IMG/VR virus record: IMGVR_UViG_3300008221_000024
Coordinates: 1 to 27,379 of that record
DNA length: 27,379 bases
Strand: one strand, 5' to 3'
Source: a virus
Shown here: piece by piece, positions 576 to 19,421 of the stretch
Numbering within the stretch: the stretch's first letter is position 1
Layout: every line of letters begins with the position of its first letter
Translations under genes and position numbers: made by a program
Notes under the pieces: generated by a model
The model's input: only the letters and a program-made list of their open reading frames with translations
Database searches by the model: none
Told to the model about the DNA's origin: nothing

Positions 576-1499
576 TTAAAAGTTAGTTATTGTGCCAAAC
601 ATTTGACTAAAGTCAATATTGTTTCCTCTATTTTGTTTAATTTCAAATAATTGTCCGTTGAATTGGTCTCTGACCTCATACAAATCATACTGCATGTATA
701 TATTATTTGCCCCGGTTAAATCATAAAGTGTGTAAATTCCACTGTCGACAGATTTTGCTTGATTACCGTAAAGTGCTATGGCAAGAGTCTCGAAATCATG
801 GTCCACCATTTCTATATCAAGTACTATAGGGTTAAAGTAAGTGTTAGTAATTATAACTGATTGTCCTGGTTGCCCTATGAATGGAATCGCATTAGGGTTA
901 TTAGATGGTGCACTAGTAGGAGTTAGTGTACAATATATTAAATTAGTCCTTGCGTTTGTATAAACGTACCTAGGTGATGTTTGGGTTGGGTTTGTATTAT
1001 TTTGTGCCACTGTCTCACAATAGAAGTTTGATGTGACTATCCTGAAGAAGTTATTTATTTTTGCCCCACTGTCTGAATCTAAATATTCTATCCTATACCC
1101 CACTAAGTCCATAGGGGAAAACCTATTTCTATATTGGGTTGGTATTGTATTTAGGTCAAATACGAGACCTTTTACATTCGGTAGTGATGATAGTATACCA
1201 CAATCTAATATTGTAGTTCTAATCTCTACGGGTCTAATATATACCGTATAGATACCTTTATTAGCAAATACTGCTGATGGGAGTTGTAGGTCATAAAGAC
1301 CACCTAAAATTTCACCAGCAGGACCTCCGGTTCCGGTAGGTCCGGTATGAAGTATTGGGGTTAATACTGTCGTTGCCGCTATTTCATACACTGTTGGTAT
1401 TGACGAAGAGTCTCTATCCCTTTGTTCGTGTACAATTATTTGTACGTCTTCGACCTTTACATCTGCCGGTCTTTTAATCCCATATGCTCCTAATGCCAT
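576..1499 (-). CDS. Hypothetical tail/virion structural protein (307 aa)
   Basis: A 307-residue protein starting MALGAYGIKRPADVKVEDVQ. It looks soluble and beta-rich, with alternating short hydrophobic strands and turns, no signal peptide and no membrane helix. A Gly/Pro/Thr stretch near residues 52-63 (HTGPTGTGGPAG) resembles collagen-like or low-complexity linkers that are common in phage tail proteins. The C-terminal third (residues about 235-307) is rich in Tyr, Asn and Gln, and there are few cysteines. The start is ATG at 1499, 3 bases after the stop of the 73-residue gene, and the next gene follows after 5 bases, so it belongs to the structural operon. I do not recognise the family; a structural role is inferred from context and composition. 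Confidence 0.8.
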   Translation of the reverse strand: MALGAYGIKRPADVKVEDVQIIVHEQRDRDSSSIPTVYEIAATTVLTPILHTGPTGTGGPAGEILGGLYDLQLPSAVFANKGIYTVYIRPVEIRTTILDCGILSSLPNVKGLVFDLNTIPTQYRNRFSPMDLVGYRIEYLDSDSGAKINNFFRIVTSNFYCETVAQNNTNPTQTSPRYVYTNARTNLIYCTLTPTSAPSNNPNAIPFIGQPGQSVIITNTYFNPIVLDIEMVDHDFETLAIALYGNQAKSVDSGIYTLYDLTGANNIYMQYDLYEVRDQFNGQLFEIKQNRGNNIDFSQMFGTITNF

Positions 1500-1502
1500 A
1501 AT

Positions 1503-1724
1503 TTATGGTTGTTTTTCTACTTTATAATAACCATACCCGTGTAACTCTAATTCACCGATACTGTTTATTTGCCCTAACCTTTGTGCTTTCTCAAAAACGG
1601 TTACCTTACCCCTTTCAATAAATATATTTGACCTGGTTTCTGGTCTTTGTACCATACCCATTAAAACCTCTAGTTTTGTTAGAGGTAATATGCATCCCGT
1701 TACTTTTACTTCACTCAGTCCCAT
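1503..1724 (-). CDS. Small hypothetical protein (73 aa)
   Basis: A short 73-residue frame, MGLSEVKVTGCILPLTKLEV..., lies tightly between the nucleotidyltransferase-like gene and the 307-residue gene, 3 bases from the latter. It has one cysteine, a mixed alpha/beta look, and no membrane segment or recognisable motif. I accept it as real because it fills the only gap in an otherwise continuous co-directional block. Its ATG is also preceded by an AT-rich element (1734-1745) that recurs at the same distance from the gp25-like gene start. Function is unknown; a small tail or chaperone-type protein would fit the position, but nothing in the sequence proves it. Confidence 0.7.
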   Translation of the reverse strand: MGLSEVKVTGCILPLTKLEVLMGMVQRPETRSNIFIERGKVTVFEKAQRLGQINSIGELELHGYGYYKVEKQP

Positions 1725-2400: not shown

Positions 2401-5400
2401 CTATGTTATTGTTAATTTATCTACGACACAACCACACACACCCCAATCCCAAATATGGTTTATACCACAATTTTCTGTTTGTACACACGAATTTTCATCT
2501 TGTGGACCTGGTGTAGCAATATTAGGCATTGTCTTACACTCACAGTCAATTTGACTCCAGTACATTCCAGGTGGGCATGGTGTTTGTACACAACAATCAG
2601 CATATGTTGTTGGTATCCAGGTTACCCCCATCCAATATTGGCAATCACACGGGTCAGTGGGGAATCCGGGAATAATTTGGGGTTGTAGGTACTGGTAATT
2701 CCAACCACCACCTTTTTTAGCTTGTTTACAACATTGTTCACAAGGTGGGACAGGTGGAGGACATGGTGAATTTGTACAACTTACTAAATCCAGGAAAGAA
2801 CCCTGTGGGTCTGGTAGACAAACTAAATTATTTGGGTTACCCCAAGTCGGTTGTAGTGTACATTCGTAATTCATATTTGAGAGTCCAGGACATGGCACAC
2901 CTACACTAGATGAACAAGCAACCCAACCATGATATGATGGGTAAGAAGGTGCTCCACTACCAAAATATTCCAAAATTCCATCACCATTCATATCGTAAAC
3001 AGAACAAGGGGCTGTTTGATTGATTTCTACTTGCCAACCTTCACCAAAGATTGTGGGCTCACCTGTTGGTGACGTAACACAACAATAACAACATCCCGCG
3101 TTTGGGTCGTCTATGCATTGCCCAGGACCAAAGTGTTGTATCCACAATGGGTTGGCGTACCATGTTAATGGTAGTGGTACACCCCATTGTACATTCATGT
3201 AGGTATCACAATCATTACAACTTGGTTCAAATGAACCACCAGGTCCTTTACAGATACCACCATCAACATCCACATTACAATCCATCCACATTACTGGGTA
3301 GGCAGTAGTACCTATATTTACACCAACATTTTGGGATGGTTGGTGTATGGACTTACATCCCCCAACACCAGAACCACCAGGGCCATCTTCAACACAGTCA
3401 CAAACAGGCATACCTACCCACGTATACCCAACCATACAAGATTGAGGTAGACATGGTTGGTCATACCTTGCTAGACTTTCTTTTATGCTATTGGATGTCA
3501 TATTTGGTAGTTGACACCCACATACAGGAAATGGTATCCATGTTTGTCCCTGTGGACACATTCCTGGGGGTGTAGACGGTGTACACAGCGATACTGCTGT
3601 ATCTTCGACACAACAATAACAACACTTATCCACTGGGTCTACCACACAGTCATTAACATTATACGTACCAAAAGTAGCACTCCATACCCCTTCAAAGTCA
3701 ATAGGTCCTGTTAGATATGAACCTAAATTAAACACACAATCATCACAACCCGCAACACAAACTGCTTGACAAGCTGCCAACGCTCCCGGTCCTTGGTACT
3801 GGGCTGTTATAGTATTATTGGGTACACACACACAAGTCCCTGGACAATTGTCACAATCGAACCCAACAATTGGTACTGTCACACAATCTGACTTACAAGG
3901 CCACCATAGACCGTAGAGTTGTTGTACAAGCCCTACCGTACTAACGTTAGAATTTTGTGTACCGTCAGCAAAAAAGCCATTAATATGATTATTATACACA
4001 ATACTTGGTGAGTAGATTAAAAGTGGACTTCCCGCTGCTAGCATATTAGACCCACTATGATTCGTAGTTTGGAGAAGTACGTAGCAACAACCATCAAATG
4101 GGTCTTCTACCACATCTAAGTAGACGTATGTTGCGGTTCCTGAAACCCATAAACCCCTATCCACAACTGCTGGTAGTGTTATTGTAGTAGTATTTGATAC
4201 GCCCAAACCGCCATTAGTACCGTAATGTTTACCCTGTGTATATGTTACAACTTGGTTTTCACAACTTAAACAAGTGCCAACTGCCTTATCACAACAATTT
4301 ATTGGTCCAGGTATACTATTTTCACAATCGTATAGGTTGGGATAAAACCCAAATTGGTTTTGTGTACACTTACACAAATTATTAGTACCAGTTACACAGT
4401 CATATCTAGTAACACCTGTATAACAACAATCATTTACTTGAGCCTCACAAATTGCTTTAGTCATATGTGGACCAGTTGCTGTTAATACACAATTACAATC
4501 CTTATTACATTCCCATCCAGTAGTAACACCAGTATAACAACAATTACTATTTATAGCGGTATGACAATCGTGTAATGTTGTATATTGACCGTATGGGTCA
4601 ATTATACAATTACAATCCTTATTACACTCCCACCTATCTGGTAAAGTGGTAGCTGAACAACATGTAGTAGGGTCAGTTAGACAATCATTCAGTGCGTTTA
4701 TTCCGGTATAAAAACCACCAACTGTTTGGGTGCAGTTACATAGGTCTGGTATTCCCGCCATTGGAGACGGAACAGTTATTTCACAATCATACTCCGGCAA
4801 TTGTACTTCACAACAATTTTTTGCGGTGTAACAATCCAATTCTGAAGCGAATCCGGTTAGTAGGTTTGGTACAAAAGTACAATCACAAGAAGTTGGTCCA
4901 GAACACAACCAAGTACCACAACAAGGTACATTAGTTAATAATGCTAGACAATCAGCTTCAATACTAAAGGCTCCTGTTGGTCCGGTGATTTGTTGACAAA
5001 CACAAAGACTTTGGGTACATAGACACGCGTCTACCGTTGTACTAACACATTTACCTAGTGACCCAGGAATTGAACCGATGGACATCCATATTGCTTCACA
5101 TATTTCTGAATGAGTATTCCCTAAACTTACAACCGACCCACTAGAATCTACCACACTTACACTCTGTAGAGACGCAATCATACTAGACCATGAATAATAA
5201 GGGCCAGAACTGATACCATAAACAGTAAACATATCACTATCTATATAAATCCCTGTAATAACACCTAACGGATATCCATTATGTAAACAAGGTGTTGCTG
5301 GGGACCCTACTGGCCACCCACCGTAGGGCCATTTAATTGTTCTGACATCTATTGTTTGTAGATATGGTGAACCCATTGGGTCTGATATAAAATCTAATAC

Positions 5401-8400
5401 GTCCGTAGTGTTTAATAAGACGGTCCCTGGTGACACTATATTATATAAGTTACTAAATATGTCATACTCACATGTGTTGGTTATTATTCCTGGTATGCAG
5501 TCCCAGGTTACGACTGAGACACTTGGACATCCCGCGTCACACGGTACCCAAACTAAACTTCCAGAACCACCACCTGGCCAAACTGGTGTAAGCAAACTTA
5601 CGTCATTCATGTACGCTGTATAATAAAAATAAGGTGGTACAGACCAGTCACTCGCTATCCCACCAGTTTCATTAAACCCCCAAACACAAACATAACAGCA
5701 CTCAGAACCATCCCAATTTGCTGTAACTATATCACCGGTATTGTATTGTGTTAGACTTACCCAAGCTGCAGCGTTGGTTGGAGTTATAGGGTTTACTGGT
5801 GTGGTGAGTGTTACCCACGAACCCGAGTCATAAGCTGTATAAACTATAGGGCTATTTAAGAAACAATCATAACACCTACAACAAGAACCACCATCATCTA
5901 ACATGGTTATAGTATTAACATAAGTTTGGCAATCTGCCATATTATTAAATGGGTATGGAGAACAATTAGTTGTTAGTATACCATTATAAAACACACACTC
6001 ACACGCATTTACACAATCACCACATAAAAAATTACATTCTGATGCACATGCCGCAGCATTTGTACCATACATAGTAGTACATGGGTTTCCATCACTACCA
6101 TTAGGTGCTGCACCAATAAAAGATATGCACCCATCTATTGCGTGACAGCAATATTCAGTTTGTGGTGCTTGACAAGGGTATGGATTTGTATTTTGTTGAC
6201 ATAGATAGGGTGATAGTTCACTAGGGCCAAAACTACATACGGTACTTGCACTACAGTATTGGTCACCCCAATTACATATTGCCACACTTGGGTCTCCACA
6301 TAAATCACAGATACCTGAACCTGGAGGTGCACAATCACAACAGAATCTACACATTTGTTGACATGAAGCTAAATTTGGAAACCCTTGTCCTGTTGGGTTA
6401 TTTCCTAACACTACAGCGTCATGATAGTTGTTTGTTGGGTCCGCTGGTCCAGTCATACCTTGACCTATCGCCATGATTTGATATGGTGCTCCTTGGCCGA
6501 CAAAAAATGAACTTGGTTGACATGGTTGTGCACCTATTGAATTGTATGCACCAGCGTCAGCACCTGCCCAATCACACCACCATTCCTCCACAACACCACC
6601 ACATTCACAATTAACGTTGGAGGCGTTACAGTCTCCCGCTGATGAATATGTTGTAGCTGCTTGAGACAGTGGTATAAATTGACATACTTGAGCACCATTA
6701 CTATTACACTCCCATGTGCACCATTCTTGGCAGTCAATTAAAGTGGTAAATGGTCCTGGAGGACCAGTCATTACTGGGAAACAACCTGTACCACCAATAC
6801 AAGGATTTCCATTTACAACAGGACAATTACAGGAAAAGTCACAATCGTATGTCATTTGTTGTGTATCACAACAATCCACTCCCGACGCTATGACAGTTAG
6901 ACAAGTAGCTAGTGAATCAAAAGGCCAGGTAGGAAAATTCATTCCTGGTGATACTGGTGGATAAGTTGTGGGGTAGAGAATATAATTCCCATTGTATATA
7001 CCGTTATTACCTGTACCTGGTGAATATATATCATTTAAATAATCTTGCATAACGGTACAGTCTGAAATTTCATTTGCTGGGTCTGGGTCTGCACAATAAC
7101 AATCCGCTCTACACTGGTTATAACCAGGAAATGCTGTTGTATCACAAATAGATGATGTGTAACAATTATGTTGTGTTTGCCATTCGGACGGGTTAAAACC
7201 TCCTGGGCTGTAAATACAGGTAGATAACGAACATCCTTCTGTACTACAGGAATATGTCAATACAGGTCCACCAGGACTACAAGGACCACACGGGTCACCT
7301 ATTGTGTTTGATGGTGGTGCAGCGAATGTAGCTGGTAGCCTTTCACAACTAACCCAACAATTTGGTATGCCGGGTACATAGTCACCATCATCTGGTGGCC
7401 CACTATTACAATCGTACACCCCACTACCCAATACTAACCCTAATGGGTCGAATGGGCAAGTACATATCCAACAACACTCTGGTGTGTTACCATCACCGTA
7501 ACTCACAGTATCCCATTCATCATATTGTTCAAAATTACTATATGCTCCTGAATTATCTAATGTCCCTGACCATCCCTGTGAAATTAAAAAGGCCTCACAT
7601 GCACACTCACACGATTCAACTGGGACTTCACAACAAGTCATTTCAAGAGAAGGTGCTGGTGCTGGACATAACGAATTTACACAATCTACCATATCACAAT
7701 AAGGGTGACCTGGGTTGTCATCGAAACATCCCGCCAATCCTGTGTTGGCACCGTTAGTATCTATGAACGCAGGGCTACAACAATTAGAAGGTTGCCCCCC
7801 ACCGAAATCACTAGTATCATCTGGTACTCCTTGACCATACCACCAACATGGGTAGTTACCACCACCACCACCTTGTAACGCTGGGGACCACGATGGGTTT
7901 TGGCCCAAATACCCAGGGTCGTACACAGCTGGGTCTTGTTCGCAAACAGCCCAGCAACACTCTGTCGCCAAACAACATTCTTCTACTGTGGTATACCCTG
8001 TAGGTGTACCATCTGCATCAACTGGTGCCCCTGGACTCCACGTTGCATTATCCATCATCATAAAATATAAATCAGGGTATGATTTACAACCTCCAAGTTG
8101 TGCCCCTGTGGTTAAATCCACAAAACAATCAATCCCCCCTTCACACCCACACAAATCCATACAATCAGTTTGTTGTAAAAATGTTAATGGGTCACCTGGG
8201 TTTAATGGGAAACCTTCGTTTGGTGGCCAGTGGGGACAACCAGGTTGACCTGTTGAAGGGTCAATATATAAGTCACATGTTTGGTTTGTGTTTGACGCTG
8301 TTGTAGCGGTACAATCACATATGTAACACGCGGTAACACAAGAACAATTCATTTCACACTGAAGTTGCATATTAATCGGATAACCCATATTGGCAAGTGT

Positions 8401-11109
8401 GTATGTTGGGACACACCCCTCACATACCACAGGACAGTCCCAACCACATTGTGTAACTCCAACACCCATCCATTGTGGGTTAGCCGCCCAACAATCACCC
8501 TGTGTTGGATAGTCACCAATAAAAGCTTCTATACAACCCTCTTCACAATTATAAACCCATGATGTGTAGTCACAACACGCACTAGCGATACCTGAAACAC
8601 CATTATTACAATCAGTAATATTGTAGTTTGGACCAAACCATAACTCGTAAGTCGCAGCTATGTAATCGACCATTGTTGGGAACGGTGATGGGTTCGTACC
8701 AGCTGCGGCAATAACTGGTTGTATAACACTACTATAATATCCTGGGTTTGATGTTAGTAAATCTTGAGCACATGAAAGTGCGATACAACAATTGTTGGAG
8801 GCTCCTATCTGAGTTGTACATGAAAAAGCGTCTGGGTTACACCACCCATTACAATCTATCTCGGAATCAAAAACTGGTCCTTGTAATGGATTCAAAGCAC
8901 TTGGGTCGTTGTAATCTGGGTGAGCTGAACTTATAGGTTGGCATGGTGTGCACGAATATGGGTCCGCACATATAAATCTATCTTCACAGCAGTCACCAGC
9001 TAAAAAATCGTTAGTACAACCTTCATAGGTTGTATACCCTATTGACGTACACGGACCAGTACTTGTGGAACCAGTACCAGCAACTAACTGACATGACACA
9101 CTTGAAGCTGTTAAAGCTGACACTGGGGGACATATCCAACTAGAGCACCCTATATAATCCCAATCTGAGCTATTAGTTAACCCTGTTGGTGGTGGTAGTG
9201 TTCCTGTTGTTAATGCTCTATAACAATTACCGTATTGACCTAACGTAAACTGTCCTGCAGTATACCCCGAACCATTAACATACACACCAGCTGGGCCCAC
9301 AGTTGCCCCTTGAGGTGTCGGGTACGCATTCCAACTATTTGTTGGGTCGTAACATGGTATTGACGTATAGTCCGGACAACTTTCACATATTGGTGAACAG
9401 GCTTCCCAGATATGTTCGGCCGGTTGTCCGTTAAACCACCACACACCTTGGAATGTATCCGTAGGTTTTATACCAGCCCATGGTGAGGTGGTGGTAGCAC
9501 TTTGTGTTATATCTTTCACTGCCATATAACAACAACATTCACCCCAGGTACTATCAAAAACAATATCACCAACCACATAATTATCACTAGGTGACCATTC
9601 ACCCATTTGGTTGTTAAACGTTATAGATTCTGCTAATAACGAAATTCTATCAATGTACTCATCTTTTGTTTCACAATAGGTACAATCACCTATCTCACAT
9701 TTTACACAATCAAACGCACCAAATGCAAAAGCGTCTAACCCACAACTTACAGCTTCATATAACGTAACACCATTACTAAAATCGTATAGTGTTATTGGTG
9801 TGTTAGTCCCAACACTAATTGTATACGATGTATATTGTGCGTTTACTGCTATTATTTCACCCATAACACCTTGTACTGTTGTGTTGGTTACTGGATTTAA
9901 AACATCACCCATAAGAGGCACAGTTATACCCATTTGATATCCTGGTGGTAAACCTGCGGTACTACTGTTAGTGTAACTTTGGAAGGCTCCTAATAAACTC
10001 TCTGTGTTTCCTGTCACATCAAAACAATTACTATTATTCCCACCACCGAATATAGGTGACATTCCACTATATTGTAATATGTTAGTTCCACCATCTAGTG
10101 GTGAAAATGGGTAAGCTCCAAAATAAGAATTGTTACCGGTAGGACCACTAGGTCCAATAATCGGTGCCACACTTGTTGGGATACCTCCAGTGGCCATTAA
10201 ATTATTGTGTGACATAAATGGTACTGTGATTGCTTGGGACGTTGACGTTGGTCCCCACGGACTTTCATGTGTTATTGTAATTCTTCTCGTACCAACACCA
10301 GCATAAGTGTGGTCTGAAGGGTTTGTTAAGTTAGGAAATTGTAAGGTTTCGCAGCATGGTTGGCCGGCTGAGTTTAGACATGGTGTAATTGGACAATTAC
10401 AGTCACAATCACCCCAATCTATTGTATACGGGGAGTCTTGGTATGATTTGTAATAACCAAAATCTGTAGAATTCCATATTTTTATATTATACCCAGAACT
10501 TGTAGTTGATGAGACAACAAAATTAGAAAAAATATCTTTTTGTCCTATGTTCCCATCCCAAATATCATAATGACCAATATCGTTAAAATCTTGGTCCAGT
10601 AGAAGTGGGAGTTGGTTTAGGTTTGTTCCTAGAGGGTTTTCACAAAAACAAGATACCGAATTAGGAATTAGGTTGGCTGATGTTTGGTTTTTTAGTGGTT
10701 GTGATAAAGTAGAATTTGTTAAACTAAAAATACTTATCATATCATTATAACTTTCCCCAGTAAATGTTTGTACACCTAACTGAATTAGGTTTAAACCAGC
10801 AAATAAGATATATGGGTGAGCTGCTGAATCTAAACAGTAAGGTGCCGGAGATGGAAACATTGGCATTGTTACTGTATCGTTTAAAATAACACATGGGTTA
10901 CTTATGGAACACCCAGTTAATTCTTGTGGGAAATTATTCATATCACCATTTAACGCTCCCCTAACTTGACTAAAGGTGGAGTTATACATCGTCAACCCAG
11001 AACAGTTAGTACTTAGGTTTATAGGCCAAAAATCAGTACCCCCAGTACAGGGTACCGTCCAATATATACTTGGATTGGTTCTTTTTATTCTGTATTTGTA
11101 GACTTCCAT
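2401..11109 (-). CDS. Giant cysteine-rich modular protein, probable tail fibre/adhesin (2902 aa)
   Basis: One uninterrupted 2902-residue frame from ATG 11109 to TAG 2401, with about 250 cysteines by hand count (roughly 8.6%), many as CC pairs or C-x-C. There is no signal peptide or membrane helix. Residues about 228-298 resemble a PKD domain: IDWGD, then HTY, then G-x-RRITIT, with a Cys-rich insert. From about residue 450 onward the chain is built of short modules with the pattern C-x(3-12)-C-x-C ... DC ... CC. The clearest run is at residues about 2025-2280, including two neighbours sharing CNKDCNC at 39-residue spacing. At least six W...Y...D-x-V...CCY...W-x-C modules are interspersed and recall CBM5/12-type carbohydrate-binding modules. 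Gly/Pro/Thr linkers such as GPSGPTG occur. The start follows 3 bases after the stop of the 312-residue gene. A disulfide-stabilised, surface-exposed fibre or receptor-binding role is inferred; no known homologue is recognised. Confidence 0.85.
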   Translation of the reverse strand: MEVYKYRIKRTNPSIYWTVPCTGGTDFWPINLSTNCSGLTMYNSTFSQVRGALNGDMNNFPQELTGCSISNPCVILNDTVTMPMFPSPAPYCLDSAAHPYILFAGLNLIQLGVQTFTGESYNDMISIFSLTNSTLSQPLKNQTSANLIPNSVSCFCENPLGTNLNQLPLLLDQDFNDIGHYDIWDGNIGQKDIFSNFVVSSTTSSGYNIKIWNSTDFGYYKSYQDSPYTIDWGDCDCNCPITPCLNSAGQPCCETLQFPNLTNPSDHTYAGVGTRRITITHESPWGPTSTSQAITVPFMSHNNLMATGGIPTSVAPIIGPSGPTGNNSYFGAYPFSPLDGGTNILQYSGMSPIFGGGNNSNCFDVTGNTESLLGAFQSYTNSSTAGLPPGYQMGITVPLMGDVLNPVTNTTVQGVMGEIIAVNAQYTSYTISVGTNTPITLYDFSNGVTLYEAVSCGLDAFAFGAFDCVKCEIGDCTYCETKDEYIDRISLLAESITFNNQMGEWSPSDNYVVGDIVFDSTWGECCCYMAVKDITQSATTTSPWAGIKPTDTFQGVWWFNGQPAEHIWEACSPICESCPDYTSIPCYDPTNSWNAYPTPQGATVGPAGVYVNGSGYTAGQFTLGQYGNCYRALTTGTLPPPTGLTNSSDWDYIGCSSWICPPVSALTASSVSCQLVAGTGSTSTGPCTSIGYTTYEGCTNDFLAGDCCEDRFICADPYSCTPCQPISSAHPDYNDPSALNPLQGPVFDSEIDCNGWCNPDAFSCTTQIGASNNCCIALSCAQDLLTSNPGYYSSVIQPVIAAAGTNPSPFPTMVDYIAATYELWFGPNYNITDCNNGVSGIASACCDYTSWVYNCEEGCIEAFIGDYPTQGDCWAANPQWMGVGVTQCGWDCPVVCEGCVPTYTLANMGYPINMQLQCEMNCSCVTACYICDCTATTASNTNQTCDLYIDPSTGQPGCPHWPPNEGFPLNPGDPLTFLQQTDCMDLCGCEGGIDCFVDLTTGAQLGGCKSYPDLYFMMMDNATWSPGAPVDADGTPTGYTTVEECCLATECCWAVCEQDPAVYDPGYLGQNPSWSPALQGGGGGNYPCWWYGQGVPDDTSDFGGGQPSNCCSPAFIDTNGANTGLAGCFDDNPGHPYCDMVDCVNSLCPAPAPSLEMTCCEVPVESCECACEAFLISQGWSGTLDNSGAYSNFEQYDEWDTVSYGDGNTPECCWICTCPFDPLGLVLGSGVYDCNSGPPDDGDYVPGIPNCWVSCERLPATFAAPPSNTIGDPCGPCSPGGPVLTYSCSTEGCSLSTCIYSPGGFNPSEWQTQHNCYTSSICDTTAFPGYNQCRADCYCADPDPANEISDCTVMQDYLNDIYSPGTGNNGIYNGNYILYPTTYPPVSPGMNFPTWPFDSLATCLTVIASGVDCCDTQQMTYDCDFSCNCPVVNGNPCIGGTGCFPVMTGPPGPFTTLIDCQEWCTWECNSNGAQVCQFIPLSQAATTYSSAGDCNASNVNCECGGVVEEWWCDWAGADAGAYNSIGAQPCQPSSFFVGQGAPYQIMAIGQGMTGPADPTNNYHDAVVLGNNPTGQGFPNLASCQQMCRFCCDCAPPGSGICDLCGDPSVAICNWGDQYCSASTVCSFGPSELSPYLCQQNTNPYPCQAPQTEYCCHAIDGCISFIGAAPNGSDGNPCTTMYGTNAAACASECNFLCGDCVNACECVFYNGILTTNCSPYPFNNMADCQTYVNTITMLDDGGSCCRCYDCFLNSPIVYTAYDSGSWVTLTTPVNPITPTNAAAWVSLTQYNTGDIVTANWDGSECCYVCVWGFNETGGIASDWSVPPYFYYTAYMNDVSLLTPVWPGGGSGSLVWVPCDAGCPSVSVVTWDCIPGIITNTCEYDIFSNLYNIVSPGTVLLNTTDVLDFISDPMGSPYLQTIDVRTIKWPYGGWPVGSPATPCLHNGYPLGVITGIYIDSDMFTVYGISSGPYYSWSSMIASLQSVSVVDSSGSVVSLGNTHSEICEAIWMSIGSIPGSLGKCVSTTVDACLCTQSLCVCQQITGPTGAFSIEADCLALLTNVPCCGTWLCSGPTSCDCTFVPNLLTGFASELDCYTAKNCCEVQLPEYDCEITVPSPMAGIPDLCNCTQTVGGFYTGINALNDCLTDPTTCCSATTLPDRWECNKDCNCIIDPYGQYTTLHDCHTAINSNCCYTGVTTGWECNKDCNCVLTATGPHMTKAICEAQVNDCCYTGVTRYDCVTGTNNLCKCTQNQFGFYPNLYDCENSIPGPINCCDKAVGTCLSCENQVVTYTQGKHYGTNGGLGVSNTTTITLPAVVDRGLWVSGTATYVYLDVVEDPFDGCCYVLLQTTNHSGSNMLAAGSPLLIYSPSIVYNNHINGFFADGTQNSNVSTVGLVQQLYGLWWPCKSDCVTVPIVGFDCDNCPGTCVCVPNNTITAQYQGPGALAACQAVCVAGCDDCVFNLGSYLTGPIDFEGVWSATFGTYNVNDCVVDPVDKCCYCCVEDTAVSLCTPSTPPGMCPQGQTWIPFPVCGCQLPNMTSNSIKESLARYDQPCLPQSCMVGYTWVGMPVCDCVEDGPGGSGVGGCKSIHQPSQNVGVNIGTTAYPVMWMDCNVDVDGGICKGPGGSFEPSCNDCDTYMNVQWGVPLPLTWYANPLWIQHFGPGQCIDDPNAGCCYCCVTSPTGEPTIFGEGWQVEINQTAPCSVYDMNGDGILEYFGSGAPSYPSYHGWVACSSSVGVPCPGLSNMNYECTLQPTWGNPNNLVCLPDPQGSFLDLVSCTNSPCPPPVPPCEQCCKQAKKGGGWNYQYLQPQIIPGFPTDPCDCQYWMGVTWIPTTYADCCVQTPCPPGMYWSQIDCECKTMPNIATPGPQDENSCVQTENCGINHIWDWGVCGCVVDKLTIT
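4268..5040 (-). repeat. Tandem run of about six Cys-rich protein modules (~39-50 aa each)
   Basis: Within the giant gene six consecutive modules share a register: an aromatic-x-C, then C-x-C, then Gly and an aromatic residue, then DC or a lone C, then CC. The clearest adjacent pair begins at the CNKDCNC motifs encoded near 4620 and 4503, exactly 117 bases (39 residues) apart. At DNA level the pair is near-identical over about 20 bases (starting at 4489 and 4606) and then diverges. The repeat therefore arose by duplication but is old or under diversifying drift. Confidence 0.75.
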
Positions 11110-11112
11110 ATA

Positions 11113-12051
11113 TTAAGGATTTACGTATTCATAAAATTTTATTGGTACCCCGTTTGGTACTTGTGGTGTGTTTTCTACTGCGTCTGGTGGTGTACCACCT
11201 GGGATTCCTGTGCCAGCAGCGGTAACACTACCCAGAGTCATAATAGCCTCATCAAATTTAGTTACCACATACCTATATTTTGGTATTGTAGTTGAAACAT
11301 TAGATGGTCCAACGAAAAGTTTTACTTTATAATAAAACCAATTTAAATTATTAAGGACCAGACCATTAGCAATCTGGTTTGGGGTTGGTTCTTCATTTAA
11401 CATATTGGTGACTTTCCCCGTTTTTGCGTTAAAAAATTTACAAGACATATAAAAAGTATCTATAGGTGTTAATTCTCTATCTTTTAACCATTGCATGTAG
11501 TAATTCTCATTTTTACCCTTTAAAGGACTTAGTATTGCTGTGGGTACATAAACCCCGTATACTATTTGGGATGTTGGTATGTTATTTGCTAGTTGTGAAT
11601 AATACTCTATTGGGTCTTCTAATGGTAGTACTGCCTTTTTAATCTTTACACAATTATTTAATGGCATTATGTTGGTGAACATTATTTTTTGGTTTTCGTT
11701 TTGCGGGGAATCATAGAAATCAAATTTAAAAAAGCTTTTAATAAATGCCTTCTTAGGTTTTGCCAAGTCTTTGTTTAGGTATCCGACAACATTAAAATTA
11801 CTCACATAAGTAGAAGTGGTGGATTCCCAAAACTTAAATTCGTAGGATACTGTATTTCCCCCCAATATATTTTTATACCCATATCTTGTAGTTTCATAAT
11901 CTTGTATAACATTTATATTATCTTGTAGTTCTACCTCTTCCCAAGTTTTAATTAATTCTTCTTGCCCAACTTCTTCAAAAGTTTGACCTATAGGTACGGT
12001 GACAGATTTATCACCTACGGAAGCTTTTATTTGTATTCTATTGACAGCCAT
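11113..12051 (-). CDS. Hypothetical baseplate/tail structural protein (312 aa)
   Basis: A 312-residue soluble protein starting MAVNRIQIKASVGDKSVTVP, with mixed strands, no membrane segment and two cysteines. The last 40 residues are a Gly/Pro-rich tail ending KFYEYVNP. Its ATG at 12051 overlaps the last 14 bases of the 602-residue gene, so translation is probably coupled. An exact TATAAATA, the T4 late promoter core, lies 18 bases upstream (12070-12077). In T4 the genes after 25, 6 and 7 encode further wedge proteins; gp8 has a similar length (334 residues), so a gp8-like role is possible by position, but I see no sequence motif that proves it. Confidence 0.8.
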   Translation of the reverse strand: MAVNRIQIKASVGDKSVTVPIGQTFEEVGQEELIKTWEEVELQDNINVIQDYETTRYGYKNILGGNTVSYEFKFWESTTSTYVSNFNVVGYLNKDLAKPKKAFIKSFFKFDFYDSPQNENQKIMFTNIMPLNNCVKIKKAVLPLEDPIEYYSQLANNIPTSQIVYGVYVPTAILSPLKGKNENYYMQWLKDRELTPIDTFYMSCKFFNAKTGKVTNMLNEEPTPNQIANGLVLNNLNWFYYKVKLFVGPSNVSTTIPKYRYVVTKFDEAIMTLGSVTAAGTGIPGGTPPDAVENTPQVPNGVPIKFYEYVNP

Positions 12052-13846
12052 CGGTATACTCAGATAATATATTTATATCCCCATTGATAAGTGGGATTAA
12101 TGCTGGACCTACAGCTTCTATTGTGAATTTTATGTTTTGGAAAGGGTAGTGGGCATCATTTAGATACGGATAACTAACCCCATTTATATCATCTTCGTAA
12201 AATTCAACCGGTAAAATTTCTCTCCACCTAAATGTTTCCTCTGATAAAGAATAAACAGCATACTGTGGTGATGTAAACAAACTATCGTTATAACTTATGT
12301 AATTTGATAGTTTTTTTAAAGGTATTTTGTGGTGTGGTTGGTATTTGTAGATTGTATCTACGAAGTCGTTTGTTGTACCACCAACCTTATACATGGTATC
12401 TCTATTAAACTTTAAGGAGTGACCAATATTAGATATTACCCTTTCTTTTAATTCAAATGGGTTGTATTCTGCAAATGCCCCTCTAAAGGTACTACCACTA
12501 ACTGGTAATGGTTTAACACCTAAAGACCCATTTTGTGTTAAATTTACTGGATGTATTGTGTTATCAACAAATGGGTCTACCAAACCATTTTTCTGAAAAT
12601 TCCAACCCCAACCAAAACCAGCTGGACTCGAAACACCACTTGGGTCCCAGTCCCAAATTAAATTTCTATTCGTAGTTAAAATAGTTAAATACAAATCAGT
12701 TACGGGACGGTTGAAGTTATCATAGTAGTTATCGGTATTTATGTCTTGGTTTGAGTTCCATAAGTAGGATTCGTATAGATGGGTTTTTACTGTTTTTTCT
12801 ATATAGTCTGGCGTTCTTTTTGGTGTATACACCCTACCTTTAACATCATATGTTCCAAGTTCAAACCCAGTTCTATCAAAAGTATAGTCGTTGGGGTTGG
12901 TTATCAATTTATGTTTCTGTGTGTAGTATTCCGACCTTGTCTCAATAGGGTTATCTATATTTATTATTCTTTTTAATGTGCCTACTGGGTTATTAAGTGG
13001 TATAGAGGCAACATCTAACCCATTGGTTTCTATATTAATTATGTATTGGTCGGAGTTCACTAAACCATTACCTAGAAAATCTACTTTAAATGTGTTTTGT
13101 GGTGGTGCTGGTATACTTGTACCCATTATAACTGGGTTAAGAACAGAAATTATAGGCACGTCAATCATTAGGGTAGCAACACCCAATACCGAAGCTGTTG
13201 ATTGTAGTTCCACATATTCCCCAGGTTGTATACCGTGTGGCACTGGTGTGATTAATTGTAAAACTTGTTTTCCGTCTATCGTTGAACTGACTGGTGTAAA
13301 TGGGATACCGTCTCCAGAGGTAAATCTCACTCCGGATAGTGTATTGTAGTCTGTATAATATTCCATTATTTGTCCCGAGTCTGATTCGTGAATATAAGAA
13401 ATGTACTGTGCCCAATTATCTTGATACGCCAATAATGGTTCCCATCCGGATAAACTAGCATTAATCCCAAATCTTTTTTCTGGAATAAATAAAAATGTTT
13501 CAGCTGGGGGTAACCCGACACAACTTCCTGGTGGGGACCCACCAACTTGTGGGCAACCTAAGTAGTCTGGTAAAAAATACATAGATTTATAAAAATCTTG
13601 TTCGTTTGTTTGTCCGGTAACAATGTTATTGAACAGTACGTCTATTTTACCGTATACTCTGTAGTTGGCACTATATTCCCTCTCAAAATCAAACTGGTCT
13701 CTTAGGTTTAACACTAGATTTCTATCTCCCTGTGTTAGTTCTTTCTTAGTAGAGACCAATAAAGGGTGGACCACCATTTCACTATTAGATGAACCAGCAA
13801 ATCTAGCGTCACCTCTTACTATTCTTGTATTTTTTTCATTACTCAT
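12038..13846 (-). CDS. Hypothetical baseplate/tail structural protein (602 aa)
   Basis: A 602-residue protein starting MSNEKNTRIVRGDARFAGSS. Composition is typical of virion proteins: many Asn, Tyr, Pro and Gly, three cysteines and no signal or membrane segment. Residues about 185-300 look like a beta-rich domain (VPHGIQPGEYVELQS...), followed by a Tyr/Asn/Asp-rich region. The start is ATG at 13846, overlapping by one base the stop of the 1206-residue gene (TAATG). The end overlaps the next gene by 14 bases. Such couplings suggest products made in fixed ratio and assembled together, consistent with baseplate wedges or connectors. It is not recognised as a known family. Confidence 0.8.
   Translation of the reverse strand: MSNEKNTRIVRGDARFAGSSNSEMVVHPLLVSTKKELTQGDRNLVLNLRDQFDFEREYSANYRVYGKIDVLFNNIVTGQTNEQDFYKSMYFLPDYLGCPQVGGSPPGSCVGLPPAETFLFIPEKRFGINASLSGWEPLLAYQDNWAQYISYIHESDSGQIMEYYTDYNTLSGVRFTSGDGIPFTPVSSTIDGKQVLQLITPVPHGIQPGEYVELQSTASVLGVATLMIDVPIISVLNPVIMGTSIPAPPQNTFKVDFLGNGLVNSDQYIINIETNGLDVASIPLNNPVGTLKRIINIDNPIETRSEYYTQKHKLITNPNDYTFDRTGFELGTYDVKGRVYTPKRTPDYIEKTVKTHLYESYLWNSNQDINTDNYYDNFNRPVTDLYLTILTTNRNLIWDWDPSGVSSPAGFGWGWNFQKNGLVDPFVDNTIHPVNLTQNGSLGVKPLPVSGSTFRGAFAEYNPFELKERVISNIGHSLKFNRDTMYKVGGTTNDFVDTIYKYQPHHKIPLKKLSNYISYNDSLFTSPQYAVYSLSEETFRWREILPVEFYEDDINGVSYPYLNDAHYPFQNIKFTIEAVGPALIPLINGDINILSEYTDGCQ
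12070..12077 (-). promoter_or_regulatory. Exact T4-type late promoter core TATAAATA
   Basis: The minus strand reads TATAAATA 18 bases before the ATG of the 312-residue gene, inside the end of the 602-residue gene. In T4 this octamer alone marks late promoters, recognised by gp55 with gp45 and gp33. The spacing would allow a short leader. A few chance hits are expected in DNA this AT-rich, and no other structural gene here has the exact octamer close upstream, so confidence is low. Confidence 0.25.
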
Positions 13847-16800
13847 TATATCACAGTATCTGCTAATTCTTCATCAATATATTTTCTAACAAACGTATTA
13901 AATGATGTAGCTCCTGGTCTTAGACCAAAATAATAAAATAACGGTTGTGAAAAAACAATTTCTTTAGAACTACCTGGCCTTAATAGTGGGTAGTTGTCAT
14001 TTGCGATTGAGAATGGTGGGTTACCCATATTGTTTTGGAAATTCCCATCATACACTAGTGGTATCGCACTAGCAGGTACATGTACGTCCCACGCGGAAAC
14101 AGCATCAATTGCTGGTAAAATAGACATAGCTGGACCCGGGACACCGAAAGCATACCTATACTTTCCTTTTGTACCAAGCCAGTCATTCCATGTATCCCCA
14201 AAACCAAAATTAGGTGCGGCTGGTCTCATACGCCAAGGATAGTACGGTACGTGTTGACTTGAGTTATTTAATTCCTCAGTCACACAATCTATCAAATTTT
14301 GTCCGTCCATAATAGTTTGTGTTTGTCCAGTGAAAAGTATAGGCTCCCATAGGATTGTATGGTTAAATGTATTATCACCACCTAATTGATTTACGTTAAC
14401 TGCATTGTCTACATAGGTTCCCGCTGTAAAGTTAGGTGATGGGTATGCTAGACCCCCACCGTCTTGTGGTGGGTTACCCATAATAGATTGTTTGGTAACG
14501 TAGTCACACTCACAAGCTGTATTTCCTAGATTAGTTTCGTACCCATAAACACCTAACATACAATTCTGCATTAATGCTTGAGCCATATCACCACCTATTT
14601 CATATTCCGGTCTAGGGAAAAATGTAGACATAGAAGCTAAAGGGTACGCCATTTTAATGTTACACATATCTGAAACTAGTTGTGTAATATCCTGGAATGT
14701 TGTACTACCTATCTGGTCTGTAATTGAGCACTCCTCACTAAATTTAGGGTCTAGACAGATTTGTTGCATACATTGATTTCTAGAACCCATATCTACAATT
14801 GTTGTTGGGAATAGGATGTGTCTGTCCATGTCCCCTCTTGCGTGTTCATCACTAGAACCATTACCATTAAATGCCCACCAAGGAGAATAAACACCATCAG
14901 TATCACCTATAAAATCACCATCAACTAGGTTAATCCCACTAACCTGAAATGGTGTTGACCTATAATAGAAGGTATGTTCTGTTGGGTGTAGGTATGTTAA
15001 TTTTTTACACCATTGTGAATTTGTTGCGTAAGACTCAGTAGTGTTGTTATATTCTAATTTTGCTTTAAATTGGAATTGGTATAGGAACCCACTTACCCAA
15101 TTGTTTTCCCAAAAATAGTTCATAATACCATTACATAAAGCAACGGCAATTTTTTCTCTTCTTGTCCATTGCCTCAATACTGTCATATCTAGGTTTTCGT
15201 CTATACATCCACTAGCAAAACATATTATTTTAACATAACACCCACCACCAGCTATACCATCTAGAACATTTGTTGATTGTGCATTCATTGAACCATCTGA
15301 ATTGAATCCATAGTTATCATCACAACAAACCCTAACCTCATCTGTCTCCTCACAACAATCATGATTGAACGACCCACCGAAATCATCACCAGTTCCACTG
15401 TTACCTGGTGGACATTGTGGTACACATGATGAACTAGTACTACCTCCGGGAGGGTTTGATGGGTCACCTGGTGGGTCACCTGGACATGGCCATCTGTGGA
15501 CGGGGTTTGATGTTAGGAAGTGCATACTATCTTCAATATTAATATTACCAACGTTTGTCCTACACATACATTTTTCACATTCTGGGTATTTGGTTTGTCT
15601 TAATTTAAATAAAACCATACCCATCCTTAAACCAAAAAATTCACACTTAGCATTACAACCAAAACCATTTAAGTTTACTGAACCGCACATTGCTGGCGGT
15701 GCCGCACTAGGGGGTAATATCCATGTCATACGAAATATGACTGTACCCCACACACTAATAGTCATACAATATATGAAACACCAGAAAACACACAAAATAT
15801 AGATTATAACCAATACTACAGCTAATATAATACTTAAGAATGCAGCTAGTATAGTAACCATGTACGCTATTAGTTGGTAAAACATACCAAGAAAATCTAT
15901 TAAAAACATCCATAAGAAAACCATAAGGTTTGGACTTCTAACGGCACTGTTAATTGGGAAGAACATTGCTGTTGTGGAACATTGTTGGTCCATTTCTGGT
16001 AATATCTCTTTTATACCCACAAATTGTCTCCTACCACTGTGTTTTACGTGGTCATGGAATTGTGAATAAGTATAAACCCTATTAAAAGTCATATCATAAA
16101 ACACATCTTCCGCTGCTGGTATAAGATTTCTCTGTGCCCAAGGATGGTAGTCACTATACTTTGTAGAAAACGTATAAGAACTAGCTTCAATGCCAGGCCA
16201 ATCACCATTATTATCTCCTGACCAATGTTCATAAAACTCTCTAATGTTAGGTACTAGGTGAGAACCTATTCTTCTTTGTCTAGCTCCACCTGTTGCTTGT
16301 TCTGGCCTTACCCTAAATCTAACTCTTGTTCTTGTAGCTACCCCGAGTGTTGGGTCGTCGGATAATACCATATCCCCAAACTCGTCGGTCACCATATAGT
16401 CTAGGTTCATTGGTAAGTGGACAAGGAAAGAACCGGAGTCGTCAATTACCCTACCCCCATCTTCAAGATAGTATCTTTCTAGGATAGGAACTTCCCCACC
16501 TAGTGGTGCTCCCCACCCACCAGGAGTATATTCTGGATAAGCAAGAGGGTCGTTTTCAAAAAATGGGGTATACCTTACACAGTCTATAATCCCTGGTTTT
16601 GATATTAGACTACATAACCCACCCATATTAGCTTTTGGTCTACAGTTATTATTTACAGAATCTTTATCAGTGTCTGAAGCTGTACTACCCATAAACACAG
16701 CTCTAGGTTCCAGTTTAAACCCAGTTTGTGATAAATCAAAATCAACCCTTGTAATGGCAGCTCTACAAAATTCTTCATCACCCCAAAAAGGTCTAACATC

Positions 16801-17466
16801 TATAGATTTTTGTAAATTTAATACTTGTGGGAGAGAATCTATCGCTCTATCATCTCTAAATCTAGGACCATCAAAATCGGAATCTGGGAATCCTTTTATT
16901 TTAAAATCTTCTGGTAAAAGTGAAAAACAACCAATATCACTAACATCCACATCCATAATAATAGTTTGGTCACCTACAGGCACCCCATATATCATAAAAT
17001 CACCAGACTCATTTGTTTTTACAGTATACCTATAATATTTCTCATATACGTATTTAACTTCTTGTTTGTTTAATACGTTATTTAGTGTTGGGAATGTTCC
17101 TACGTTTACGTGACAGTCAAATGTTTTTTCACTACTTAGTAAATTATACCTTTTACCATCCTCATCATTATCAAAAGGTTGTTTAAATGGGTATAAAAAT
17201 TTTATTACCTCATTTTCCTCATCTTTATCGTCTAGTGGTATGAATATTGAGACTTTCGCGTTTGGGATACCGAAACCACCATTCGCAACTACTCTCCCAA
17301 CAACAACACCAAAATCCGCACACATACGTGTATACACATCTTGTTGCGTTAATGAAAGACTAAGAATTTCTAACAAATCAAAGTCCTGATTTAATTTAAA
17401 TGTTACATTTTTATCTTTTGCCCCATTTGTGTTGATGTCCGTCCTTACCCTGAATGATTGACCCAT
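13846..17466 (-). CDS. Large putative baseplate protein with carboxypeptidase-regulatory-like domain and a hydrophobic core (1206 aa)
   Basis: A 1206-residue protein. Residues about 52-175 resemble a carboxypeptidase regulatory-like (beta-sandwich) domain: GRVVANGGFGIPNAKVSIFIP-like start, then YTVKTNESGDFMIYGVPVGD. Residues about 513-573 are almost wholly hydrophobic, with LSIILAVVLVIIYILCV at the centre, long enough for two to three membrane helices. They are followed by Cys-rich segments, including CNAKC, CEKCMC, CC-x-ET and VCCDD, and by a Pro/Gly/Ser linker near residues 650-690. Total cysteines are about 45. The gene stands directly after the gp25-like and gp6-like genes, where T4 has gene 7 (wedge protein, 1032 residues), so a wedge role is plausible by position. 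T4 gp7 is not known to have membrane segments, which makes this protein unusual. The start ATG 17466 follows a 116-base gap with hairpins. Confidence 0.85.
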   Translation of the reverse strand: MGQSFRVRTDINTNGAKDKNVTFKLNQDFDLLEILSLSLTQQDVYTRMCADFGVVVGRVVANGGFGIPNAKVSIFIPLDDKDEENEVIKFLYPFKQPFDNDEDGKRYNLLSSEKTFDCHVNVGTFPTLNNVLNKQEVKYVYEKYYRYTVKTNESGDFMIYGVPVGDQTIIMDVDVSDIGCFSLLPEDFKIKGFPDSDFDGPRFRDDRAIDSLPQVLNLQKSIDVRPFWGDEEFCRAAITRVDFDLSQTGFKLEPRAVFMGSTASDTDKDSVNNNCRPKANMGGLCSLISKPGIIDCVRYTPFFENDPLAYPEYTPGGWGAPLGGEVPILERYYLEDGGRVIDDSGSFLVHLPMNLDYMVTDEFGDMVLSDDPTLGVATRTRVRFRVRPEQATGGARQRRIGSHLVPNIREFYEHWSGDNNGDWPGIEASSYTFSTKYSDYHPWAQRNLIPAAEDVFYDMTFNRVYTYSQFHDHVKHSGRRQFVGIKEILPEMDQQCSTTAMFFPINSAVRSPNLMVFLWMFLIDFLGMFYQLIAYMVTILAAFLSIILAVVLVIIYILCVFWCFIYCMTISVWGTVIFRMTWILPPSAAPPAMCGSVNLNGFGCNAKCEFFGLRMGMVLFKLRQTKYPECEKCMCRTNVGNINIEDSMHFLTSNPVHRWPCPGDPPGDPSNPPGGSTSSSCVPQCPPGNSGTGDDFGGSFNHDCCEETDEVRVCCDDNYGFNSDGSMNAQSTNVLDGIAGGGCYVKIICFASGCIDENLDMTVLRQWTRREKIAVALCNGIMNYFWENNWVSGFLYQFQFKAKLEYNNTTESYATNSQWCKKLTYLHPTEHTFYYRSTPFQVSGINLVDGDFIGDTDGVYSPWWAFNGNGSSDEHARGDMDRHILFPTTIVDMGSRNQCMQQICLDPKFSEECSITDQIGSTTFQDITQLVSDMCNIKMAYPLASMSTFFPRPEYEIGGDMAQALMQNCMLGVYGYETNLGNTACECDYVTKQSIMGNPPQDGGGLAYPSPNFTAGTYVDNAVNVNQLGGDNTFNHTILWEPILFTGQTQTIMDGQNLIDCVTEELNNSSQHVPYYPWRMRPAAPNFGFGDTWNDWLGTKGKYRYAFGVPGPAMSILPAIDAVSAWDVHVPASAIPLVYDGNFQNNMGNPPFSIANDNYPLLRPGSSKEIVFSQPLFYYFGLRPGATSFNTFVRKYIDEELADTVI

Positions 17467-17582: not shown

Positions 17583-19421
17583 TTAAAATACTGGTTTACT
17601 TGGTTTTTTGAATCTTACTGATATGTCTTTTTCTGGGAAACGGATTTGTAGTATCTCGTTAGGTTGAGCGTATATAGTGTCTTCTATTAGACCTATTTGT
17701 TTAGTTGTTGCGTTTATATATGGTTGGGTACTTATCGATTGGGAGTATTCTCCACCCACCTTATTAAACACGTATAGTCCTGTTATATTTAGTACCCCTG
17801 GTTGTCCCATTATAAAACCCCTTAATGTACCTAAAGTTAGGTCTTCACCTAATTCCATTTTATCCACAGAAAAATATTCACTAATTTTTGTTATTACATT
17901 TGTGACGATACTACCTTCATTCGCGGATTTTTCTAAAATTAAATCGACGCTTAATGATAAGTCTATAACTCTTGCAGCTCCCACCAATATGTAGTCATTT
18001 AACATCCTGTAGTTGGATAGGTAGTTGGATATGTTATTTTTAAGTGTTTCACTGACTAGGGATGTTAGTTTACCGTCTGGTGTGTAAGATAAAACGTTTA
18101 AGTTTACCTTATTTTCTATTTCAGTAACACCAACTTTAGCTGGTGCACCAAATGTAGCTGGCATTGTCCTTAATTTAGAAACATAATCGTTAATGGTTAC
18201 TCCTCTATTTTGTGCTGTAAAATTAAAAGCTATATAATTTCTTATCTCATCTGGTGACATCTGATTTGCCCCACCTATAGATGGTGTAGTATTCGTAATT
18301 GATAAACTATTTTTTACTGTTTGGTTTATTTGTTGGCTTGGTCCAGCTACAACAAAATCCACACTACCTACCGTATTTATAGCCCCAGCCCCTATGTTGG
18401 ATGATTTACCACCGCCAATCCTATATTGTATAAATAAAGTGGTATTCCCTTTAACAGAGTTACCTAAAGATATGTTATTTAAAAACTGTGACATATCTAA
18501 TTTAACACCTTTTGATGCGAATCCGTCTAATAAATCTTGTGAAGTTTGGTTACCACTACCAAAAGTTAAATGGAAAAATCCTTCAGGTGTAAACTCAGTA
18601 ATAAATCTTTGTGGTACTGTGATATACTTACCAACTTTTATCCCTGGAGTATCTGGTGGCATAGAAGGGTCTATAACAAAAACTTCATTTTGTGCTAAAG
18701 CTTCCACTTCACTCCATTTATTCACGGTTGGTGATAAGAATTCTGTGGTACTAGGTATTGTTTGATACCCAAGGCCGTCTTTTTGTATTACACTAGTTAC
18801 ACCTATAACATTTTTTTCTGGTAAAAAAAGTTTAAAGAATGGTTTGCTATCAGCATTATTAATTTCTTTTTTAAATACTTTAGTTATTCCATTCACCAAC
18901 ACTTCTTTTTTAATAATTGTATAATTTTGTATAATACCATTAGAATTATAGTTTGGTATTTTTGTCTGGTTTGGTATTCCTTCTGCACTATACTGGGATG
19001 AAAAGTCACAATCTTCTATTAACTCAAATACCTGACCAGCCCCCCTAAATTGTCCTCCGGCTCTTATCTTACCCAAATATTTAAAATCTTCTTTGTCACC
19101 TAGGACTGGTACTATGATTGATAAGTCACATACAGTAACAGAAGGCCTGTTACCTGGAATTTTTAACCCGTAAGTTTTAGCTATATTATATAAAGAACTT
19201 CTTTCTTGAGCGTACTGTAGGACTGTCTCTTGGAAGGTTCTATCTATTTGGAAATTAAGATTGTCTGCAACTGCCGCGTTTAGGTCTAAAAATACCGAAT
19301 ATATTGATGCGTCATTAGCATTTTTAATTAAATCTGGATAATAGGTATTTGTTAACCTTAGAAGTTCATTTCTAACTCCTAAAAAATCTCTTTCGGTATA
19401 TGATATTTTTTTCTCTGCCAT
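17583..19421 (-). CDS. 6: Baseplate wedge protein, gp6 / baseplate-J-like (612 aa)
   Basis: A 612-residue protein with the two ends expected of T4 gp6-like wedge proteins. The N-terminal part (residues about 5-85) has SYTERDFLGVRNELLRLT, then DNLNFQIDRTFQETVLQYAQERSS and NIAKTYGLKIPGNRPS-type sequence. The C-terminal half (about 390-600) matches baseplate_J order: SPDEIRNYIAFNFTAQNRGVT, then VSKLRTMPATFGAPAKVGVTE, then LNDYILVGAARVIDLSLSVDL and GEDLTLGTLRGFIMGQPGV. gp6 dimers form the ring of the baseplate wedge that drives sheath contraction. T4 gp6 has 660 residues, so the length fits. Its ATG at 19421 is one base past the gp25-like stop, matching the conserved 25-6 gene order. Confidence 0.92.
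   Translation of the reverse strand: MAEKKISYTERDFLGVRNELLRLTNTYYPDLIKNANDASIYSVFLDLNAAVADNLNFQIDRTFQETVLQYAQERSSLYNIAKTYGLKIPGNRPSVTVCDLSIIVPVLGDKEDFKYLGKIRAGGQFRGAGQVFELIEDCDFSSQYSAEGIPNQTKIPNYNSNGIIQNYTIIKKEVLVNGITKVFKKEINNADSKPFFKLFLPEKNVIGVTSVIQKDGLGYQTIPSTTEFLSPTVNKWSEVEALAQNEVFVIDPSMPPDTPGIKVGKYITVPQRFITEFTPEGFFHLTFGSGNQTSQDLLDGFASKGVKLDMSQFLNNISLGNSVKGNTTLFIQYRIGGGKSSNIGAGAINTVGSVDFVVAGPSQQINQTVKNSLSITNTTPSIGGANQMSPDEIRNYIAFNFTAQNRGVTINDYVSKLRTMPATFGAPAKVGVTEIENKVNLNVLSYTPDGKLTSLVSETLKNNISNYLSNYRMLNDYILVGAARVIDLSLSVDLILEKSANEGSIVTNVITKISEYFSVDKMELGEDLTLGTLRGFIMGQPGVLNITGLYVFNKVGGEYSQSISTQPYINATTKQIGLIEDTIYAQPNEILQIRFPEKDISVRFKKPSKPVF

Follow-up and report, generated by a model that had tools for sequence, protein, structure and literature searches.

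The gene at positions 2401-11109 of the DNA analysed here (27,379 nucleotides; hereafter, the window) encodes a cysteine-rich giant protein, which is considered, with a probability of roughly 60%, to be an enlarged baseplate-associated tail-tip protein that would serve as a disulfide-stapled, protease-resistant, glycan-gripping arm. Judging from the comparisons described below, a small tail-tip protein is enlarged about eightfold in a group of uncultured aquatic phages. Almost all Cys residues of the enlarged protein are conserved, and disulfide bonds between them are probable.

The gene and its product

The sequence-only reading had claimed a 2902-residue open reading frame at 2401-11109 with about 250 cysteines. 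This was exact; the frame lies on the minus strand, which had not been named, and Cys accounts for 8.65% of the residues. The gene and its parts are as follows.

2401..11109, minus strand: gene for the Cys-rich giant protein (ATG start at 11109; 2,902 aa; 251 Cys)
10618..11109, minus strand: N-terminal region, aa 1-164, common to long-form relatives
9718..10617, minus strand: conserved core, aa about 165-464, common to the 316-390-aa Cys-poor relatives (alignments), with a PKD domain match by Foldseek
2404..9717, minus strand: Cys-rich extension, aa about 465-2902 (about 2,437 aa containing 236 Cys), which the Cys-poor relatives lack

The protein is acidic (pI about 4.05) and has a mass of ~310 kDa. 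Lys and Arg together account for only 47 of the 2,902 residues (30 and 17, respectively), and runs free of both reach 297 aa. A hydropathy scan revealed no hydrophobic, membrane or signal-like segment. The other proteins of the window contain 0-5.2% Cys, the next-highest large one being a 1,206-aa neighbour with 3.1%. A 312-aa gene precedes the start of the giant gene by 3 bases, within a run of genes on the same strand. Between close relatives, its dN/dS was 0.22-0.31, and conserved Cys codons showed synonymous TGT/TGC changes. Therefore, it may be concluded that the gene encodes a real protein under selection.

Position among baseplate genes

The gene had been placed among baseplate genes from the sequence alone, and comparison with PHROGs confirmed this setting, since gp25-like and gp6-like genes were found in the window. 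The neighbouring features are listed below.

19423..19890, minus strand: gp25-like baseplate wedge protein (PHROG_261, E 1.3e-17)
17583..19421, minus strand: gp6-like baseplate wedge protein (PHROG_219, E 5.8e-17)
13846..17466, minus strand: 1,206-aa neighbour with 37 Cys and a hydrophobic segment, used as a marker for synteny and the tree
11113..12051, minus strand: 312-aa protein, conserved neighbour flanking the slot on the left (profile matches in Cys-rich and Cys-poor relatives)
1503..1724, minus strand: 73-aa ORF corresponding to the C-terminal tail of the ancestral protein, here detached (..TKxE..RPETRSNIFIERGK..FEKAQRLGQI..IGELELHGYGYYK); in L104, L058, L061, L080 and L071, the fused proteins of 253-390 aa end in this sequence
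576..1499, minus strand: 307-aa 'MALGAYGIKRPADV' protein, conserved neighbour flanking the slot on the right

The giant gene thus occupies a slot after gp25/gp6, between the ~300-aa gene and the 'MALGxYGIKRPADV' gene. In related phages, the slot downstream of gp25/gp6 was found to be filled by a Cys-poor protein of 316-390 aa.

This conservation bears on the idea that the product is a non-virion protein, displayed on the infected cell or set free from it (altering the cell surface, for example), and that its proximity to baseplate genes is due to chance. Such a role would fit the huge size of the protein, which is unlike known baseplate parts. However, a signal-like or membrane segment is lacking, the slot has been kept throughout the lineage, and in its small form the slot protein, with core and tail, lies between tail genes. 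A non-virion role is consequently regarded as improbable.

Several other genes of the region may be mentioned. The 1,206-aa protein after gp6 is strongly hydrophobic at about aa 514-578 (Kyte-Doolittle up to 3.3); this stretch is kept in distant relatives and is unusual for a baseplate protein. A 212-aa ORF (1754-2392, minus strand) lies between the giant gene and the detached 73-aa tail ORF. It contains a GSF..DVDI stretch and looks nucleotidyltransferase-like by eye, with no match in Pfam; it also occurs in L002, L003 and L006, the closest relatives of the window, and is absent from L135. At 25033-25467 (minus strand), a gene resembling those for FKBP-type peptidyl-prolyl isomerases was identified by eye, with a UvsX-like gene on one side and an exonuclease-like gene on the other.

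Core and tail on either side of the extension

In the relatives L058, L061, L080 and L071, the slot is occupied by a single protein of 316-390 aa, in which a PKD-type core is directly followed by a tail of the form 'TKxE...PE..TDVFVERGK..FE..QRLGE..NIGDL..YGYGFFK'. The same core (QDxNDIGxY..QKDxFSNF..) with a PKD domain was found in the giant protein. The C-terminal FIERGK..GELxxHGYGYY tail is also present in the window, but as the separate 73-aa ORF. The core of the giant protein ends near aa 464, and ~2,440 Cys-rich residues separate it from the tail. Of the N-terminal region, the opening MExxKYRI is shared more widely than the rest of aa 1-164. In mid-size relatives, it is a second Cys-rich gene that ends with the tail. 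This second gene (L007:12635-15826, L034:12011-15241, L028:15191-18385; 1,006-1,076 aa, 62-78 Cys) carries repeats of the GCxDPxAxNYxPxA type, to which the conserved tail is joined.

The PKD domain lies at about aa 225-300, and one of its loops holds a Cys-bearing insertion. The structural model of aa 1-620 was of moderate quality (pLDDT 61.6, pTM 0.31). Its PKD segment matched PKD structures in Foldseek with a probability of 1.00 and a TM-score of 0.64-0.67 on the target, with no E-value below 0.001. The best viral structural match of the core (BFVD) was A0A6J5L9U6 (E 4e-13, 25% identity), a 'PKD domain-containing protein' of an uncultured Caudovirales phage. It has the same core, but its length of 364 aa leaves no room for the ~2,400-aa Cys-rich extension. 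On these alignments and structural matches, the giant protein apparently arose by enlargement of a small, conserved tail-tip protein and not as a stand-alone new gene.

Size series and phylogeny

The core was found at 65 loci in a scan of viral contigs, and at least 578 relatives of the 1,206-aa neighbour were found. Complete long forms numbered 26 including the window (25 further loci), with 2,440-2,991 aa and 181-255 Cys; Cys content across this long conserved family was 7.4-8.6%. Mid-size forms had 777-1,253 aa and 28-66 Cys, and short forms had 355-390 aa and 0-7 Cys. The slot protein of L104, a contig in the Prochlorococcus single-cell genome AG-409-L21, is minimal (253 aa, 0 Cys).

In the tree of the 1,206-aa marker, all Cys-rich forms fell into one clade (support 0.995), within which the longest forms made up one clade (support 1.0). 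The simplest reading is that Cys-rich modules accreted at a single site of the ancestral tail-tip protein, in a single clade, the direction of the size change being set by rooting on L104, which could be argued otherwise.

Conservation and paired change of cysteines

Ordered C-x-C, DC and CC spacings had been claimed for the giant protein. CC and CxC were indeed above chance (29 observed vs 21.7 expected and 30 vs 20.0, respectively; for Cx3C, 25 vs 16.4), but the raw departure was only moderate, and it was conservation of the cysteines that went far beyond chance. Relative to the window protein, 98-100% of Cys were kept at 54-62% identity of the non-Cys residues. At 29-35% non-Cys identity, 83-91% were kept among the 20 non-redundant long members (the 26 long proteins contain near-duplicates); the latter are upper values because the preference of MAFFT for aligning Cys with Cys raises apparent conservation when identity is low. 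In the 20 sequences, 126 of 361 Cys columns were invariant, compared with 8 of 190 for Trp and 20 of 835 for Gly. Thus, the cysteines are nearly invariant in a diverging background.

Where Cys columns did vary, they changed mostly in pairs with a spacing of 5-33 residues (for example, aa 902/908, 687/708, 896/924 and 1218/1251). A partner with the same pattern of presence and absence within 60 columns was found for 49 of 105 variable Cys columns, compared with 19.2 after shuffling (200 shuffles, maximum 32; z 7.0). The same test on Trp, Gly, Pro, Tyr and Asp gave z values from -0.7 to 2.5. When 13 sequences were used, z was 6 for Cys, and seven other residues gave values from -1.6 to 1.3. Type-C motifs (see below) were gained or lost between relatives as whole 4-Cys units.

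The alternative of a metal-binding (zinc or Fe-S) role for the cysteines, which had also been raised from the sequence alone, has a precedent in the four-Cys Fe-S cluster known in the tail hub protein of the marine roseophage R4C (PMC10276861). As the main role of the cysteines, it was not supported: CxxC occurred at chance level (18 vs 18.2 expected), only 24 His residues are present in the 2,902 aa, and variable Cys columns change in pairs. Metal binding is therefore very improbable. Paired gain and loss, together with the lack of a CxxC excess, fits disulfides better than zinc or Fe-S sites, although the total of 251 Cys is odd, which counts against this reading. The AlphaFold model of the Cys-rich aa 2015-2300 was too poor (pLDDT 50) to lend structural support to cysteine pairing.

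Modules of the extension

Profiles built in this analysis gave ten modules of type A, six of type B and four of type C, as follows.

9397..9603, minus strand: first type-B (CBM5/12-like) module, aa 503-571 (profile)
aa 1188-1222, 1782-1857, 2319-2405, 2474-2522 and 2658-2732, minus strand: further type-B modules (profile)
4291..4911, minus strand: five type-A 6-Cys modules in tandem, aa 2067-2273 ([WY]xC..CxC..GxY..L.DC....CC)
aa 853, 1466, 1571 (weak), 2417 and 2748, minus strand: other type-A modules (profile)
2425..3558, minus strand: four type-C motifs CxxGxxWxxxxCxC, aa 2518, 2558, 2845 and 2881 (profile)

The chain of small disulfide-type modules that had been suggested is supported by these repeats and by the paired gain and loss of Cys. 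Much of aa 570-2000 is Cys-rich and fits none of the three types.

Type B shares the pattern W-x5-Y-x2-GD-x-V-x(n)-Y with CBM family 5/12 (PF02839) and differs from it in having an additional CC dipeptide and a C-terminal part of greater length. In the PDB, the best match of its profile was 3wx7 (E 5e-4); the top seven matches were deacetylases (E 5e-4 to 4e-3), aligned, where the alignment was shown, in their CBM-like C-terminal parts, and the profile thus matched chitin deacetylase as well as the chitinase A1 domain (E 0.085). Weak matches to Pfam CBM_5_12 were obtained for 7 of 14 type-B members (best single module, E 8e-4), and the whole giant protein scored 14.2 bits, below the cut-off of 26.2. 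In the cases shown, type-B matches were below the Pfam cut-off; the additional CC could have altered the function.

Type A, with mostly 32-45 aa and 4-6 Cys, is apparently an undescribed Cys module: it had no match in the PDB and only one stray match in Pfam. It recalls the C-terminal half of Kunitz/BPTI domains, which we take as a lead only. The likeness consists of C-x(n)-C-x(~12)-C-x3-C and a beta-beta-alpha pattern in a low-confidence model; however, the N-terminal Kunitz cysteines are absent from type A, and no Kunitz match was found in Pfam or the PDB. Borrowing of type A from Bacteroidota-type hosts was not supported, since no such module was found in 296 genomes of the phylum Bacteroidota, while the same query matched the phage record G003. 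A type-A module also occurs near the end of a neighbour protein of 1,258-1,388 aa in relatives (L002:23983-27759, L135:12580-16746), where it follows an acidic low-complexity linker.

The extension might instead be protective armour, in which case a sleeve hardened by disulfides would guard the tail tip against proteases and shear without having a specific ligand. The extreme scarcity of Lys and Arg, the acidic pI and the conservation of Cys while other residues drift (at the dN/dS given above) are consistent with this, as is the lack of a recognisable binding module in most of the extension outside types A-C. Nevertheless, CBM5/12-like modules occur throughout the Cys-rich family, and a shield would not need them. 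Armour alone is thus unlikely, though it is the strongest competitor of the glycan-gripping arm.

Searches for relatives, phage group and host

The earlier statement that no phage fibre of this kind has been described stood, as no relative was found in phage records, PHROGs or the PDB. The giant protein itself matched nothing in PHROGs and the PDB, and its only match in Pfam was the sub-threshold one to CBM_5_12; no known phage tail fibre or tail spike family was matched in these three resources. In tblastn searches of 50,697 phage records, no match was obtained with the giant protein, the 1,206-aa neighbour or three proteins of relatives. To our knowledge, no phage fibre of this kind has been described.

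Because the window is without a capsid gene, the contig of a relative (L110) was used for capsid comparison. Its major capsid protein (gp23) was 34-43% identical to those of Far-T4 phages over the aligned parts, being closest to Microcystis phage Mel-JY01 and Flavobacterium phage immuto and more distant from Rhodothermus phage RM378. The RNR of the window was 66% identical to that of Mel-JY01. The phage group looks Far-T4-like, but none of its slot genes was found in the examined parts of the RM378, immuto and Mel-JY01 genomes.

Marine Far-T4 members have been linked in silico to Bacteroidetes (PMC7198788; PMC4360716). Contigs with relatives of the 1,206-aa protein were labelled Bacteroidota or Cytophagales (3), Prochlorococcus, Mycoplasmatota and Wolfebacteria, and the host of the phage group is uncertain. 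Prochlorococcus AG-409-L21 may be the host of the L104 phage, or the phage may have been an attached particle.

A link to cysteine supply was not supported: no PAPS reductase was found in 12 related records and no tRNA genes in 14 loci scanned. Glutaredoxin genes are present in related phages, but they say nothing specific because the Cys-poor L058 also has them.

Proposed mechanism and comparison with known systems

In the proposed tail-tip arm, the N-terminal PKD-containing core would anchor the giant protein in the particle, a task that the Cys-poor small form would perform in relatives, and the 73-aa tail piece would supply the remainder of the old docking protein. The ~2,400-residue extension would consist of a series of small, individually disulfide-stapled modules and would act as an acidic, protease-resistant arm whose six CBM5/12-like units may grip polysaccharide on the host or on particles; a role in adsorption is thus envisaged. 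The bonds are predicted to form after lysis, on exposure to oxygenated water, because the protein has no membrane or signal-like hydrophobic segment.

Of the new surface-adhesion fibre that had been suggested, the adhesive part fits the CBM5/12-like modules and the PKD domain, but the gene is better described as an expanded small tail-tip protein than as a new one. It is put forward tentatively that the protein represents a new class of adhesin, in which an about eightfold-grown tail-tip protein with undescribed 4-6-Cys modules and cystine-modified CBM5/12 units would acquire >100 disulfides per chain after lysis and become a protease-proof glycan-binding arm.

The Cys-poor, 28-66-Cys intermediate and long forms in the same slot provide a natural series on the rise of a disulfide-stapled arm. 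With this series, it can be asked how and why a tail protein becomes stapled, when the bonds form and what is bound. Since Lys and Arg are few, tryptic proteomics of virions would largely miss the giant protein; in practice, this may be why it has escaped notice.

The cytoplasm in which phage proteins are synthesised is reducing, and their Cys content is usually about 1% (0.9% in T4, 0.7% in A511; PMC10811340). In Agrobacterium phage Milano, the baseplate and tail proteins are disulfide-linked, and these bonds need to be reduced for contraction (PMC10811340); heavy cross-linking at a contractile baseplate therefore has a cost. Stabilisation of the tail and baseplate by disulfides in Milano is a parallel to what is proposed for the giant protein, with no sequence relation known between the two. 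However, Milano has 2.1% Cys in its structural proteins and an inter-subunit network of bonds, whereas here 8.65% Cys is concentrated in one modular protein, and the Cys content of its family is about four times that of Milano.
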